Shown here in pieces: positions 55,009 to 61,816 of a DNA stretch of 64,000 bases (the stretch's first letter is position 1; each line of letters begins with the position of its first letter). The stretch comes from an uncultured Thermotogae bacterium (GTDB lineage Bacteria; Thermotogota; Thermotogae; Mesoaciditogales; Mesoaciditogaceae): positions 30,727-94,726 of the forward strand of contig CAJXLN010000003.1 of the NCBI GenBank assembly GCA_913056255.1. Direction: 5' to 3'. The translations under genes and the position numbers were made by a program. The notes under the pieces were generated by a model. That model worked only from the letters and a program-made list of their open reading frames with translations. It did no database searches and was not told the DNA's origin.

Positions 55009-55099
55009 TTTGCACCTCCTCCCATAAAACACCCGCCGATTCAAGGTGGAGCTGTCGACTCTCTTCAAACCAGAATCGTGCGTCACGTAAATTTTACCA
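55009..55099 (-). promoter_or_regulatory. rplU promoter (extended -10 TGGTAAAAT) and candidate structured leader
   Basis: TGGTAAAAT at 55099-55091 on - strand; inverted repeat CGATTC/GAATCG (55073-55078 / 55037-55042) enclosing a loop rich in complementary segments. Confidence 0.4.
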
Positions 55100-55449: not shown

Positions 55450-55467
55450 CTCGATAGTTCAAAGTAG

Positions 55468-55492
55468 AAAAGGGCGCTTAAAGCGCCCTTTT
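55468..55492 (+). terminator. Intrinsic terminator after the 38-aa ORF
   Basis: AAAAGGGCGCTTAAAGCGCCCTTTT. Confidence 0.85.
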
Positions 55493-55508
55493 CTGATAAA
55501 ATACTTAT

Positions 55509-56477
55509 ATGAGACGATACATCATTTTTTTATTTTTTATTCTAACGATCTTGAAAGTATTTGCCATAGATCTCCAATTCAATGCTCCACCAAGTCCTGG
55601 CGCGTTGAAATCTCATTTGCTGGCCCTCATCAATTCTGCACAATCCACAATATCAATTGCCATTTACAACATGAACGACGCAGAAATAGCGAATGCACTA
55701 AAGGAAAAAGAATCAGAAGGAATCAATGTGAGAATCATCACGGAAGGGAAAAATTATATAACAAATCACGATTTCTTCTCCAATATAAATACAGTTGCAG
55801 ATCCAATAGATGGTGGTTTGATGCATGAAAAATTCGTCGTTGTTGACGATAAATGGGTATGGATAAGTTCTGCAAATTTTACCAATTCTATGTACAAAGA
55901 CTTGAACAATGCCTTGATCTTCGATTCCAGGTTACTTTCACGTGTGTTCAACGAAGAGTTCAATCTCATGTACGAGGGATATTTTTCTGATCCGAAAATC
56001 GAAGAAGCCACGAGTTTAACGGCAGAAGATGTGAGATTAGAGGTAAGATTTTCTCCATTCGGCGGCATTTTCGACAAAATCGTAGATGTTTTGAAGCGTG
56101 CAAAACACGAGGTAGACGTCGCGATGTACGCCTTTTCAGATATGAGAATCTCTCTTTTGCTCATGACTCTCGATGAACAAGGAATAAAAGTGAGAGTTCT
56201 TGCAGACAAGAGTTGGAATTCTTCTGGATACAGTGTGTTGCCAAAAATGAAAGAATTCAGTTTCTTTAGAAAATTTGACAATCCTTACGGTTTGCTTCAC
56301 GACAAATATATTATCGTAGATCCCAATTCACCTGATGCAAAGGTTTTAACTGGTTCCTACAATCTTACACGATCGGCTCAATCGAGAAATGATGAAGTCT
56401 TGATTGTCATTCATTCAAAAGAAATTGCAAGGCTTTATCTTGAAAATTTCGAATCGCTGTGGAGTACAAGTCATTAG
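55509..56477 (+). CDS. Exported phospholipase D-like protein (two HKD motifs)
   Basis: Signal peptide; LMHEKFVVVDDKWVWISSANFT and LLHDKYIIVDPNSPDAKVLTGSYNLT. Confidence 0.92.
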   Translation: MRRYIIFLFFILTILKVFAIDLQFNAPPSPGALKSHLLALINSAQSTISIAIYNMNDAEIANALKEKESEGINVRIITEGKNYITNHDFFSNINTVADPIDGGLMHEKFVVVDDKWVWISSANFTNSMYKDLNNALIFDSRLLSRVFNEEFNLMYEGYFSDPKIEEATSLTAEDVRLEVRFSPFGGIFDKIVDVLKRAKHEVDVAMYAFSDMRISLLLMTLDEQGIKVRVLADKSWNSSGYSVLPKMKEFSFFRKFDNPYGLLHDKYIIVDPNSPDAKVLTGSYNLTRSAQSRNDEVLIVIHSKEIARLYLENFESLWSTSH

Positions 56478-56540: not shown

Positions 56541-57302
56541 CTATTGAAGAGATAAGCTTTTTGCGTACTTAAGAGCGGTCTCTCTTGGATTTTCTGAAAA
56601 GATAATCCCACGCGATACGTTGACCAAAATCTTTTCACGTGCCGCAGATTTCATAACATCTTTCACACTCCCACCTTGTACTCCAATACCGGGAACGAGT
56701 ATGAAACTCTTAGGTGATATTTCGTGCACTTCATCCAGCGCTTTTGAAACCGTGGCACCTACCACGAGACCACATCTTTTTCCGTATTCAGCAGCAAGAA
56801 CGGCAACTTGTACGTACAGTGGCGGATTACCGTGATATTCAAAATCAGCAGCACTTGGGTTGGACGAGAGACAAACAAGGAATGCGTATTTGTCCTCATA
56901 TTTCAAGAAGGGTGATATAGCGTCTGAACCCATGTAAGGTGAAAGGGTAATGGCATCGAAACCGAAGAATTCAAAAGCTGCTTTTGCGTAAGCTTCAGCC
57001 GTAGAAGCGATATCTCCACGTTTGGCATCGTATACAACTGGAATGTCGTCGCCTATCAATTCCCGTGTTTTCAACAAAGTTCTCATTCCATCTGGTCCGA
57101 GCATTTCATAAAACGCTGAATTCATTTTGTAAGCGCATGCGATGTCTTTCGTTGATTCTACTATGTATTTGTTGAATTCGTACATGCCTTTTGAATCTTT
57201 TGAGAAAGATTTTGGAAGGCGTTCAACATTCGTATCAAGACCTATTACCAGAAGATTTTTAACTTCTTTTTTCCTCTTTTCCACTTTCTCAACGAAATTC
57301 AT
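56541..57302 (-). CDS. pyrF: Orotidine-5'-phosphate decarboxylase (type 2-like)
   Basis: VIGLDTNVERLP, YDAKRGDIASTAEAYAKA, FILVPGIGVQGG. Confidence 0.93.
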   Translation of the reverse strand: MNFVEKVEKRKKEVKNLLVIGLDTNVERLPKSFSKDSKGMYEFNKYIVESTKDIACAYKMNSAFYEMLGPDGMRTLLKTRELIGDDIPVVYDAKRGDIASTAEAYAKAAFEFFGFDAITLSPYMGSDAISPFLKYEDKYAFLVCLSSNPSAADFEYHGNPPLYVQVAVLAAEYGKRCGLVVGATVSKALDEVHEISPKSFILVPGIGVQGGSVKDVMKSAAREKILVNVSRGIIFSENPRETALKYAKSLSLQ

Positions 57303-58207
57303 TCGAAACCTCCTTTGTGAGCAGCTCCCACTATGTCTTCAAAATTCATTTTCTTGCGTTTCAAAAATTCACCAACTCCTCTAACAATAGCTGGTATCCC
57401 TTTTGGATTTATCATGGCTTCGGCTCCAACACCTACAAGGGAAGCCCCTGCGATTGCGTATTCTACGACGTCTCTGGAAGTGGTTACCCCACCGAGTCCT
57501 ATTATGGGGAGATCAGGGAAGGCTTCTTTTACCTGATAAACCTTCCATAAGATTATCGGCATAAAAGCGGGACCACTGAGTCCTCCATTTATCCTTTTCA
57601 AAAACGGTTGTCCGGTTTCCACGTTAAATCTCGTACCCTGTATGGAATTTGCAACATTGATGATATCCGCTCCAGACTCCTTTGCGACGCGAGATTGTTC
57701 GACAACGTTCAAGTCTGGTGAAATTTTGACTATTAACGGCTTGTTTGTCCGCTCTCGACATGCTGAAATGATATCTTTTGAAAGTTTGCCATCTGCAGCG
57801 ATCACACCTTTTGAATGTACGTTAGGACAAGATAAATTGATCTCTAACATGTCACAGAACTCTTCAATTCGACTGGTTAAGTCAGAAAAATCGTCGGGAG
57901 ATTCTCCACCTATTGATATAATTCTTCTGGTGGTTTTTGGAAGTTTTGGAGCGATCCTTGACTCAAAAATCTTTATGCCCGGATTTTGTAATCCTATGGA
58001 ATTAAGAAGTCCGCTTCGCACGTAAACGATACGCGGCGGTTTGTTTCCATCTTTGGGAAAAGGAGTCACCGTTTTAGTCGTGAATCCTCCAATTTCAGAT
58101 GGCGAAAGGTATTCGAAGAATTCTTCCCCAAATCCAGCAGGCCCGGACGCAATTACGATTGGATTTTTGAATTCAACGCCTTTGATCGTGATCTTCAATT
58201 TGTTCAT
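57299..58207 (-). CDS. pyrD: Dihydroorotate dehydrogenase catalytic subunit (1B-like)
   Basis: FKNPIVIASGPAGFG, LEINLSCPNV, PLIVKISPD, IIGLGGVTTSRDVVEYAIAGA. Confidence 0.94.
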   Translation of the reverse strand: MNKLKITIKGVEFKNPIVIASGPAGFGEEFFEYLSPSEIGGFTTKTVTPFPKDGNKPPRIVYVRSGLLNSIGLQNPGIKIFESRIAPKLPKTTRRIISIGGESPDDFSDLTSRIEEFCDMLEINLSCPNVHSKGVIAADGKLSKDIISACRERTNKPLIVKISPDLNVVEQSRVAKESGADIINVANSIQGTRFNVETGQPFLKRINGGLSGPAFMPIILWKVYQVKEAFPDLPIIGLGGVTTSRDVVEYAIAGASLVGVGAEAMINPKGIPAIVRGVGEFLKRKKMNFEDIVGAAHKGGFE

Positions 58208-58943
58208 TCGAATTCTCCTCAACTGCTGAATGTCCTGCAGATACATCCATTATCTCATTTGCCGGAAATGTCGGACCGTCTTTACAAACGAACTTTATTC
58301 CGGACTTAGTCATAATAGCACATCCTTCACACATTCCCCTGCCACAAGCCATTTTCTCTTCCATAACCAGATAAAGGTTCCTGTCTTTGAAGATTTCTGC
58401 TGTCTTTTCCAACATTGGTACAGGGCCACACGCGATCACATTCTCAAGAGGCGAAAATTTTGCTACGTCAAGAACAGTGGTAGGCTCCACAGTAGATACG
58501 GAAGATGTCGGCACGTCTACCAGTTCAAAAAAAGCTTCATCTCGAGCACCAACTACCATTTCCTTAAACTCGTACCTCATCGCGTAGAAATGTATGGGGG
58601 CGTATCCAGCACCGCCTGACAGAAGCAAAGGATGCTCAAGAATTGGCATGGGATTTCCAAAAGGACCATCGATCACGATTTTTGACGAATTTTTGAAAAA
58701 ATGCTCAAACTCTCCACCGGATTTTATGAGAAATCTTAACATCCCGTCTTTCAAATCGTAAACACTGAAGGGCCTTGGCACATAAGGTCCAACAGGTGTT
58801 TTTACCATAAAAAACTGCCCTGGAAACACATTTTCTCGAATTTTGGAAGTGTCCTTGGCACTCCCAAAATCATCGTATGGCACATCCACAAGGAGAAATT
58901 CACCATCTTTAGAATATTTGAAATCTTTCACATTACATTCCAT
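58173..58943 (-). CDS. pyrK: Dihydroorotate dehydrogenase electron-transfer subunit
   Basis: VPRPFSVYD, MEEKMACGRGMCEGC...C 2Fe-2S ligands. Confidence 0.92.
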   Translation of the reverse strand: MECNVKDFKYSKDGEFLLVDVPYDDFGSAKDTSKIRENVFPGQFFMVKTPVGPYVPRPFSVYDLKDGMLRFLIKSGGEFEHFFKNSSKIVIDGPFGNPMPILEHPLLLSGGAGYAPIHFYAMRYEFKEMVVGARDEAFFELVDVPTSSVSTVEPTTVLDVAKFSPLENVIACGPVPMLEKTAEIFKDRNLYLVMEEKMACGRGMCEGCAIMTKSGIKFVCKDGPTFPANEIMDVSAGHSAVEENSNEQIEDHDQRR

Positions 58944-60142
58944 TTCGGATCACCGTAAACTTTCTTTCCATTCGAAAAAGTGGCCAACACTTTTCCTCTC
59001 AAAGATTTTCCAAGAAATGGTGTGTTGCGTGATTTACTGATAAGACTTTTATCGGAGACTATCCACTCGGCATTCGGATCGAAAATCGTAAAATCAGTTG
59101 GATTGTTCCCTTTGAGAGTTCCACCTTCGATTCCGTAAAGCTTTGCGGGAACACTTGTTACCTTCGAAAGTAACAGTTCGATCGATAATCCCCTTTTTGA
59201 TACCATCAGCAATTCGCTAAGGAGGGTTTCAAAGCCTATAATTCCAAATGGTGCTGACTGAAACTCAACCTCTTTTTCATGGATCGCATAAGGAGCGTGG
59301 TCCGTGATAATTGCGTCTATCGTATCGTCTTCCAATCCGCGGTAAAGTTCTTCTTGTTCTTTGGACGTTGGAAATGGTGGATTTATTTTCTTTGATGTGT
59401 CGTAATCCCAAAGATCTTCATCTTGGAAGAGCAAATGGTGCACGCACACATCACATGTTACGTCAATTCCATCTGCTTTTGCTTGTCTTATGAGTTTCAC
59501 ACTTCTTTCAGTCGAAACATGTGCGATGTGAACATGAGCCTTGGTGAGGTAAGAAAGTTCTATCTCACGAGACACGGCGATCGATTCCGTTACACTCGGA
59601 ATGGCGTACACTCCGTAGAGTGTGGAATACCAACCCTCTCTCATGTGTCCACCTTTTAAGTAAGGGTCTTCACAGTGCGAGATGATCGGAAGCCCCAATT
59701 CCGACGCGTACTCCATTGCATGACGTGCGAGGGATGAATCTTTCAAGAAAGTACCATCATCCGAAAATCCAACAACACCCGCACGTGCCATTTTACCCAT
59801 TTCAGCCAGTTCTTTTCCTTCTCTTCCCTTGGTGATCGCACCTATAATTTTGACATCAATACATGCTTTTTTAGCACGCTCTGTCAGATACAACACAGCT
59901 TGTTCTGTATCAATTGCCGGTGTTGTGTTTGGCATCGCGAAAACAGTTGTTATTCCGCCATGGGCTGCAGAACGTGCACCGGAAAAAATGTCTTCACGCC
60001 AAAGCTGACCCGGATCTCTTAAATGTGCGTGCGTATCGATCAGGCCAGGTAACACCCAGAGAGCGTTCAAATCGGTATTTTGTTCTGAAAATTTTTCACC
60101 GTCAAACACTATAGCACCTTCAGGTATTATCATAGTTCTCAC
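58928..60142 (-). CDS. pyrC: Dihydroorotase
   Basis: LPGLIDTHAHLRDPGQLWREDI, GFSDDGTFL, AHVSTERSV, IITDHAPYA. Confidence 0.95.
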   Translation of the reverse strand: MRTMIIPEGAIVFDGEKFSEQNTDLNALWVLPGLIDTHAHLRDPGQLWREDIFSGARSAAHGGITTVFAMPNTTPAIDTEQAVLYLTERAKKACIDVKIIGAITKGREGKELAEMGKMARAGVVGFSDDGTFLKDSSLARHAMEYASELGLPIISHCEDPYLKGGHMREGWYSTLYGVYAIPSVTESIAVSREIELSYLTKAHVHIAHVSTERSVKLIRQAKADGIDVTCDVCVHHLLFQDEDLWDYDTSKKINPPFPTSKEQEELYRGLEDDTIDAIITDHAPYAIHEKEVEFQSAPFGIIGFETLLSELLMVSKRGLSIELLLSKVTSVPAKLYGIEGGTLKGNNPTDFTIFDPNAEWIVSDKSLISKSRNTPFLGKSLRGKVLATFSNGKKVYGDPKWNVM

Positions 60143-61055
60143 CTCCGAGGGTAAGGTAAAGTATCGCCATTCTTACTGCCACACCGTTTGTAACTTGATC
60201 TTCTACTTGAGAGATTTTGGAGTCTGCCACCTCTGTAATAACCTCAACACCTCGGTTTATGGGACCTGGGTGCATGAAGATCGCTCCAATACTGGCAAAT
60301 CTCATAATTTCCGGTGTGATACCGTAAAACTCGTTGTATTCATCCAATGAAGAGAAGAATCCTCCTGATTGGCGCTCGAGTTGCATTCTCAATCCCATCA
60401 CAACGTCCGCGTCTTTTACGGCTTTGCGTACATCGTGAGAAATTCTCACCCCGTAGTTCTCAGCACCCAAAGGTATCATTGTTTTGGGGCCACAGAATGT
60501 GACATTTGCTCCCATCATCTTTAAAAGCTTGGCATTGGATCTTGCCACTCTGCTGTGCAAAATATCACCAACAATGGTCACATTCAATCCCTTTAAAGTT
60601 CCAAATCTTTCCCACATGGTATACCCATCTAAAATCGCTTGAGTGGGATGTGCTCTGATGCCATCACCTGCGTTGATAACCACTGCATCGGTATATCTTT
60701 TCAGCATCATTGGACTACCGGGCTCACTGTGTCTTATCACGTAAAGATCTACACCCATGGCATCCAGAGTTTTCACCGTATCTTTGAAAGATTCTCCTTT
60801 TTTCAGCGAACTTGTCGATGCAGAAAAATTCACAACATCGGCATTCAATCTTTTGGCTGCCACCTCAAATGACATTCTTGTTCGCGTTGATGGCTCAAAA
60901 AAGAGAGTACACACCGTTTTCCCTCGAAGTGCTGGAACCTTCTTTATCGGTCTTTTAAGGACTTCCTTGAATTCCTTTGCCATTTCGAAGATCTGTTTTA
61001 TCTCTTCAGGAGTCAAAAGATCCACATCGAAGATATCTTTTCCCGCAATACTCAT
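60120..61055 (-). CDS. pyrB: Aspartate carbamoyltransferase catalytic subunit
   Basis: LFFEPSTRTRMSFEVAAKRL, VINAGDGIRAHPTQAILD, MHPGPINRGVE. Confidence 0.97.
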   Translation of the reverse strand: MSIAGKDIFDVDLLTPEEIKQIFEMAKEFKEVLKRPIKKVPALRGKTVCTLFFEPSTRTRMSFEVAAKRLNADVVNFSASTSSLKKGESFKDTVKTLDAMGVDLYVIRHSEPGSPMMLKRYTDAVVINAGDGIRAHPTQAILDGYTMWERFGTLKGLNVTIVGDILHSRVARSNAKLLKMMGANVTFCGPKTMIPLGAENYGVRISHDVRKAVKDADVVMGLRMQLERQSGGFFSSLDEYNEFYGITPEIMRFASIGAIFMHPGPINRGVEVITEVADSKISQVEDQVTNGVAVRMAILYLTLGGENYDNT

Positions 61056-61609
61056 TTTTCTTCTCCTCGAGTGCTAGAAAGATGCGCGTCATCGGCACCT
61101 ATGAATACACCGTCTTCTCCATCGCACTCCATGAATTTCACGTAGATTCTCTCGTCCTTACGTGTCGGGATGAATTTTCCAAGTATATCCGGTTGTATGG
61201 GTAATTCACGTCTGTTTCTATCAACAAGCACTGCCAAGATGATTTTACTCGGTCGTCCAAAATCCATGATCTCATCCAGAGCCGCTCTTATGGTTCTGCC
61301 GGTGTGTATCACGTCATCAAAGAGAATGACTGCTCGTTCGTTTATGTCCACATTCATCTGTGTGCCTTTGACCTTTGGAACTCTAATGGATAACGCCGCA
61401 TCGTCTCGATGAAAGGTGATATCCACAATGCCGAAATCGTAAGATATCTCCTTTTCCTCGAAGAGTTTTAAAAATCTTTTGGCAAGATACACTCCCCTTG
61501 TCCGTATTCCGACCAAGACCGGAGATTGTCCATCCAATTTCTCAACCAGTTCATGAAACATTCTTTCTACTATCAACTCGATCTCATGTTTTTTAAGGAG
61601 CTTGCGCAT
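61052..61609 (-). CDS. pyrR: Bifunctional pyr operon regulator/uracil phosphoribosyltransferase
   Basis: LVGIRTRGVYLAKRF, VILFDDVIHTGRTIRAALDEIMDFGRP. Confidence 0.95.
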   Translation of the reverse strand: MRKLLKKHEIELIVERMFHELVEKLDGQSPVLVGIRTRGVYLAKRFLKLFEEKEISYDFGIVDITFHRDDAALSIRVPKVKGTQMNVDINERAVILFDDVIHTGRTIRAALDEIMDFGRPSKIILAVLVDRNRRELPIQPDILGKFIPTRKDERIYVKFMECDGEDGVFIGADDAHLSSTRGEEK

Positions 61610-61636
61610 CTGTTCACCTCCATTTTGGCAAAATAA

Positions 61637-61656
61637 AAGGACGCTTAAGCGTCCTT
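61637..61656 (-). terminator. Intrinsic terminator/attenuator upstream of pyrR
   Basis: - strand AAGGACGCTTAAGCGTCCTT followed by TTATTTTG. Confidence 0.8.
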
Positions 61657-61667
61657 AAAATAAAATT

Positions 61668-61763
61668 CTAAGAATCCAATAAAGATGGAAATCTTTCCCT
61701 CTTCTCCTTTTGCAAAGAGAGGAGTAACGATCTTAAATTCAAGATAATGCGAATAAAACGCAT
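61668..61763 (-). CDS. pyr operon leader peptide, 31 aa: MRFIRIILNLRSLLLSLQKEKRERFPSLLDS
   Basis: GGAGGTG SD, ATG 61763, TAG 61668-61670, 11 nt before the attenuator hairpin. Confidence 0.6.
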   Translation of the reverse strand: MRFIRIILNLRSLLLSLQKEKRERFPSLLDS

Positions 61764-61787
61764 CTTCCACCTCCAAGATTCAAAGGC

Positions 61788-61816
61788 ATTATACACAAAA
61801 ATTCTTACAGTGTCAA
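61788..61816 (-). promoter_or_regulatory. pyr operon promoter
   Basis: TTGACA (61816-61811), 17 bp, TATAAT (61793-61788): exact consensus. Confidence 0.9.

Follow-up and report, generated by a model that had tools for sequence, protein, structure and literature searches.

The pyrimidine (pyr) operon of this genome, which its closest relatives place in the Mesoaciditogaceae (Thermotogota), is preceded by a leader that is probably a translation-coupled attenuator, one in which a ribosome translating a short open reading frame (ORF) would govern an intrinsic terminator, pausing of RNA polymerase would sense UTP, and the core mechanism would not require PyrR. The leader lies on the minus strand of the window (the whole 64,000-nucleotide stretch analysed), and positions below are those of the window. 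Its sigma-70-type promoter (61788..61816) combines a -35 TTGACA at 61816-61811 and a -10 TATAAT at 61793-61788 across a 17-nt spacer, and this 12/12 consensus match is unique within the 2 kb scanned. Downstream follow a Shine-Dalgarno (SD) sequence, GGAGG (61770..61774), and a leader ORF of 31 codons (61668..61763) that runs from an ATG at 61763 to a TAG ending at 61668 and encodes MRFIRIILNLRSLLLSLQKEKRERFPSLLDS. The ORF contains a central hairpin (61699..61724), a candidate pause hairpin, and a U-rich tract (61678..61691), which lies 72 nt 3′ of the start codon and is, from an offset shared with relatives, a candidate UTP-sensitive pause region. Eleven nucleotides after the TAG begins the intrinsic terminator (61637..61656), a stem-loop AAGGACGC-UUAA-GCGUCCUU with equivalents in all relatives; its 8-bp stem, AAGGACGCTTAAGCGTCCTT at 61656-61637, is followed by TTATTTTG, and the U-rich tail occupies 61629..61636.

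The operon then reads pyrR-pyrB-pyrC-pyrK-pyrD-pyrF, all on the minus strand. The first gene, pyrR (61052..61609, start at 61609), scores 183 bits against NCBIfam PyrR NF003549 (cut-off 138), and the others are above the cut-offs of their models: pyrB, aspartate carbamoyltransferase (60120..61055; NF002032); pyrC, dihydroorotase (58928..60142; TIGR00857); a pyrK-like electron-transfer subunit (58173..58943; PF10418); pyrD, dihydroorotate dehydrogenase (57299..58246; NF005574); and pyrF, OMP decarboxylase (56541..57302; TIGR02127). The initial annotation had placed the consensus promoter, the SD sequence, the 31-codon ORF, the terminator 11 nt past its stop and the adjoining pyrR correctly. Elsewhere in the window, an inverted repeat at 55460-55510, probably a bidirectional terminator, draws several weak matches to sRNA models on either strand, and a sub-threshold L21 leader match (26 bits vs a gathering threshold of 36) lies at 55031-55082 on the minus strand, where the rplU region begins.

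The search for relatives covered ten genomes from the order Mesoaciditogales, in genera designated g1, g2, g3 and g4. Their wider set of pyrimidine genes has features of its own. In g1 the gene pyrE stands apart from the operon, and in g2 and g3 it lies downstream within the pyr operon region; in the window's genome (contig C25) it has its own promoter-like sequence, and no leader of the same kind was seen before it. CarA (TIGR01368) and CarB (TIGR01369) fall below cut-off in all ten genomes, the window's included, and above it in 14/14 controls, while carbamate kinase (TIGR00746) is above cut-off in all ten. This combination suggests that carbamate kinase may supply the carbamoyl phosphate for pyrimidines in the Mesoaciditogales, a source that has been reported for some archaea.

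Nine Mesoaciditogaceae leaders were readable, six before pyrR and three, from g2, before pyrB; the contig of a fourth g2 genome is cut. An SD sequence, an ORF and a terminator were found in all nine and also in two leaders from f6, a second Thermotogota family that is probably Kosmotogaceae. One terminator (leader L004) was read by hand, its tail being absorbed into the stem so that the automatic scan missed it. All nine family leaders have a TTGACW/TATAMT promoter at the equivalent position, 23-27 nt between the -10 and the leader start codon, GGAGG before that codon, and a hairpin in addition to the terminator. Among the eleven leaders the frame invariably either stays open until no more than 11 nt separate it from the terminator stem or continues through the stem. 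Among the g1 genomes, two have an ORF that stops short of the stem, by 11 or 5 nt, and the third, like g3, has one that stops at the stem's edge; in g4 and g2 the ORF crosses the stem, in two cases extending as far as the next gene's start codon, and in both f6 leaders it crosses the terminator and overlaps the pyrR start. Such read-through ORFs extend 42-107 nt beyond the start of the stem. Conservation of the leader ORF and the hairpin in relatives had been set beforehand as one of two tests that could refute the hypothesis; both are kept, and the hypothesis survived.

Taken alone, the window leader is not unusual in this respect, as 16% of its dinucleotide shuffles have an ORF this near the stem; across the individual leaders, the frame is open to the stem in 5 to 43% of shuffles. 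The product of these probabilities is 6e-8 for ten distinct leaders and 3e-4 for one leader per genus, both of which treat lineages as independent and so overstate the case somewhat. The selection check proposed for the leader ORF came out divided: the start and the open frame are kept, but no selection on the peptide could be detected in a pair of g3 species, between which six codons have changed nonsynonymously and two synonymously, with differences distributed 3/3/3 over the codon positions. This suggests that it is translating itself, and not its product, that matters. As far as the compared sequences indicate, what is conserved is the start, the open frame, a covarying hairpin, the U-rich tract and the terminator, with the peptide sequence free to vary.

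These patterns bear on two other readings of the leader. If the terminator were a constitutive dosage element with a fixed level of read-through, the ORF would be non-functional; the open frame, the strong SD sequence and the fixed spacing of the U-rich tract are nevertheless kept across several genera while the intervening sequence changes, and we give this reading hardly any credence. Attenuation of the amino-acid type would involve ribosome stalling, for example at arginine codons, with a link through carbamoyl phosphate. The window peptide, with five Arg and eight Leu among its 31 residues, would suit such stalling, yet the peptides of relatives contain 0-4 Arg and variable Leu. Nor was a conserved antiterminator pairing with the 5′ arm of the terminator found by duplex energy, in a weak test in which most positive controls likewise showed none. 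Judged solely on peptide composition, amino-acid sensing is unlikely, and the reading as a whole seems extremely improbable.

The central hairpin sits just 5′ of the U-rich tract. In the six pyrR-bearing relatives, 88% of the cells in its apical stem are paired, against 43-60% in slid controls, and both sides have changed in four of the seven pairs; these values come from an alignment that was trimmed manually and whose rows were manually centred on their loops, a procedure that biases the result towards structure. The U-rich tract occurs at +72 nt from the start codon in seven of the nine family leaders; the leader of the g2 genome G001 has none there. When one g3 leader was left out, the +72 offset was common to six of eight leaders, a number that none of 3000 shuffle sets reached. 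On the compared sequences, a hairpin followed at a fixed distance by a U-rich tract fits UTP-sensitive pausing. A different use of the leader's pyrimidines was considered and rejected: pyrimidine-rich bases past the -10 pair on paper with the SD sequence, as for start-site switching of the kind seen at E. coli pyrC, but they lie too near the -10 for transcription.

A terminator in front of pyrR, the first gene, is also what a Bacillus-type PyrR attenuator would present, with an anti-antiterminator, an antiterminator and a terminator, and with the ORF being accidental. The PyrR box is given as ARUCCAGAGAGGYU (PMC7430163), and the PyrR-binding loop was searched for as ARUCCNGNGAGGYU. In the pyrR-bearing leaders of the family the best match has 4-5 mismatches, the same as in shuffles, whereas 0-2 mismatches were found in 11 of 16 control leaders, which precede pyrR in other phyla and each have a terminator-like hairpin. 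The Rfam PyrR element RF00515 has no match in the window or its relatives, in contrast to the positive controls L044 and L028, a Planomicrobium and one Omnitrophota leader. Conversely, an SD-preceded ORF covering the terminator is seen in none of the 16 controls. Together with the conserved open frame and the retention of the leader in g2, which has no pyrR, these observations make the Bacillus-type reading very improbable. The initial annotation had argued for control of the terminator by the ribosome and not by a Bacillus-type PyrR attenuator, and that view is supported by an ORF that reaches or crosses the terminator in all readable relatives, by the missing box and Rfam element, and by the leader of g2.

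The survey of PyrR boxes yielded a separate observation. Leaders L013, L021, L022, L025, L030, L031, L036, L037 and L042, mostly of Candidatus Omnitrophota, carry a PyrR box that reads GGUCCNGUGAGGCY, roughly 105-130 nt 5′ of pyrR. In the RF00515 scan L013 and L021 were unmatched and only L028 matched, and this Omnitrophota-type group seems to escape the Rfam model.

The gene pyrR is first in the operon in genera g1, g3 and g4 (six genomes). It is missing from all four g2 genomes in a genome search (G001 being assembled in three contigs), and the three of these with readable leaders have the same type of leader before pyrB. The leader is thus kept irrespective of the presence of pyrR. A PyrB tree separates g2 from g1, g3 and g4, with moderate support and one distant sequence misplaced, and in the outgroups f4 and f6 pyrR adjoins pyrB; from the tree and these pyrR-bearing outgroups, the history is most simply read as a loss of pyrR in g2. 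The PyrR proteins are also altered where the leader occurs. Residue Arg146, numbered from the PyrR alignment and reportedly in contact with RNA, is Gln in the window and Gln or Glu in all nine PyrRs of leader-bearing lineages, including f4, whose leaders (tRNA, short ORF, hairpin, pyrR) were read by eye only. Arg146 is kept in 11/11 box-bearing relatives and in 6/6 aligned Thermotogota PyrRs without the leader. In two f4 leaders (L082 and L084) the tRNA gene is flanked by a promoter on one side and the hairpin preceding pyrR on the other, an arrangement in which one transcript may carry both the tRNA and the pyr operon.

These data also bear on whether PyrR could act through the ribosome. UMP-bound PyrR might bind the leader RNA, perhaps at the central hairpin or the SD region, and block leader translation so that the terminator forms; antitermination would then fall to the ribosome and sensing to PyrR. 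A ribosome-dependent attenuator upstream of pyrR has reportedly been proposed in Thermus ZO5, and the reading would account for pyrR as first gene in g1, g3 and g4, for the retention of His22 and Arg141 in the Mesoaciditogaceae PyrR, and for a central hairpin that covaries in these three genera and, in several of their species but not in g2 leaders, shares a NNAAGCGG-type apex. Against it stand a PyrR box at chance level, the replacement of Arg146 in every leader-bearing lineage, and the g2 leader that persists without pyrR. Pairing with a downstream U/C-rich tract that would hide the SD sequence, suggested by the fold of the window leader (z -3.4), reached at best P = 0.036, in that leader, and was nonsignificant in the ten other leaders, for which reason SD sequestration is not claimed. 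On balance we regard a sensor role for PyrR as rather unlikely. Its position as first gene in g1, g3 and g4 suggests some regulatory or enzymatic use. Retention solely as the cell's uracil phosphoribosyltransferase (UPRTase) was rejected, since upp is present in all ten Mesoaciditogales genomes and PyrR is not needed for that activity; PyrR may nonetheless have an enzymatic role.

In the PyrR-independent attenuator that we favour, the terminator would fold by default. A ribosome close behind RNA polymerase would reach the end of the ORF, or cross the stem, while the terminator is being made, and its presence there would keep the terminator hairpin from folding, so that the operon is transcribed. 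At low UTP, i.e., in pyrimidine shortage, elongation would slow at the central hairpin and at the U-rich tract some 72 nt from the start of the ORF, and the slowed polymerase would let the ribosome catch up. With ample UTP the polymerase would outrun the ribosome, and termination would follow. PyrR would be dispensable for these core steps. Measurements in E. coli bear on the distances involved: a terminator stem 5 bp past a stop codon drops in efficiency from about 90% to under 10%, uncoupling of translation abolishes this suppression, and beyond about 27-30 nt from the stop codon the terminator is fully effective (PMC4824070). All eleven leaders fall within the suppressing distance, a range that may differ at high temperature, and for this reason a closely following ribosome is held to turn the operon on. 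Blocking of the stem by the ribosome in vivo, a pause at the U-rich tract and UTP as the signal are our inferences; sensing of UTP by pausing is proposed because of the hairpin, the U-rich tract, the precedents in E. coli and the nature of the genes controlled.

One history that seems possible, and that we offer tentatively, is that this lineage swapped PyrR-RNA attenuation for a PyrR-independent, ribosome-coupled UTP attenuator and kept pyrR in first place, that PyrR lost its RNA-contact Arg146, and that it was then wholly lost in one genus, leaving the leader as sole control. Genus g2 is in effect a natural experiment that separates the role of the ribosome from that of PyrR. Translation-coupled pyrimidine attenuation would be placed in a deep-branching thermophilic phylum, where both the displacement of an RNA-binding regulator by a ribosome-based one and the tightness of transcription-translation coupling in Thermotogota would become testable. 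No report of leader-peptide control of pyr genes in Thermotogota was found in the limited collection of literature searched.

Compared with known systems, the leader resembles the Bacillus PyrR attenuator (RF00515) in having a terminator before pyrR, and departs from it in having an ORF and neither a PyrR-binding element nor an Rfam match. The closer parallels are in E. coli, and the hallmarks of pyrBI/pyrE-type attenuation are present as sequence: an SD-led leader ORF reaching the terminator, an intrinsic terminator, and a hairpin with a U-rich tract (G001 excepted). In rph-pyrE the stop codon comes just before the terminator. The window ORF likewise stops just 5′ of its terminator, although the translated gene upstream of pyrE encodes a real enzyme, unlike the short leader ORF here. 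UTP-dependent attenuation controls pyrE in E. coli (PMC10087573). In pyrBI the terminator lies within the leader ORF (PMC4824070). The window shares with pyrBI, and its leader pyrL, a promoter-proximal leader ORF, a hairpin followed by a U-rich tract and a terminator controlled by coupling; it differs in an ORF that stops 11 nt 5′ of the stem, in an operon that starts with pyrR and in its phylum. The pyrBI layout that the initial annotation had proposed thus does not hold strictly for the window, whose ORF ends before the terminator, and does hold for the read-through form in g2, g4 and f6.

Thermus ZO5, with an operon said to be pyrR-pyrB-bbc-pyrC and PyrR reportedly the proposed sensor, is alike in having pyrR first, a leader 5′ of the terminator and a translating ribosome in place of an antiterminator. 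By contrast, the leaders studied here have no PyrR box, Arg146 of their PyrR is replaced, and g2 retains the leader without PyrR. Given the Thermus ZO5 proposal, the principle is already known, and what is new is its phylum, the Thermotogota, together with a genus that lacks PyrR and the change of Arg146 in the PyrR that remains.
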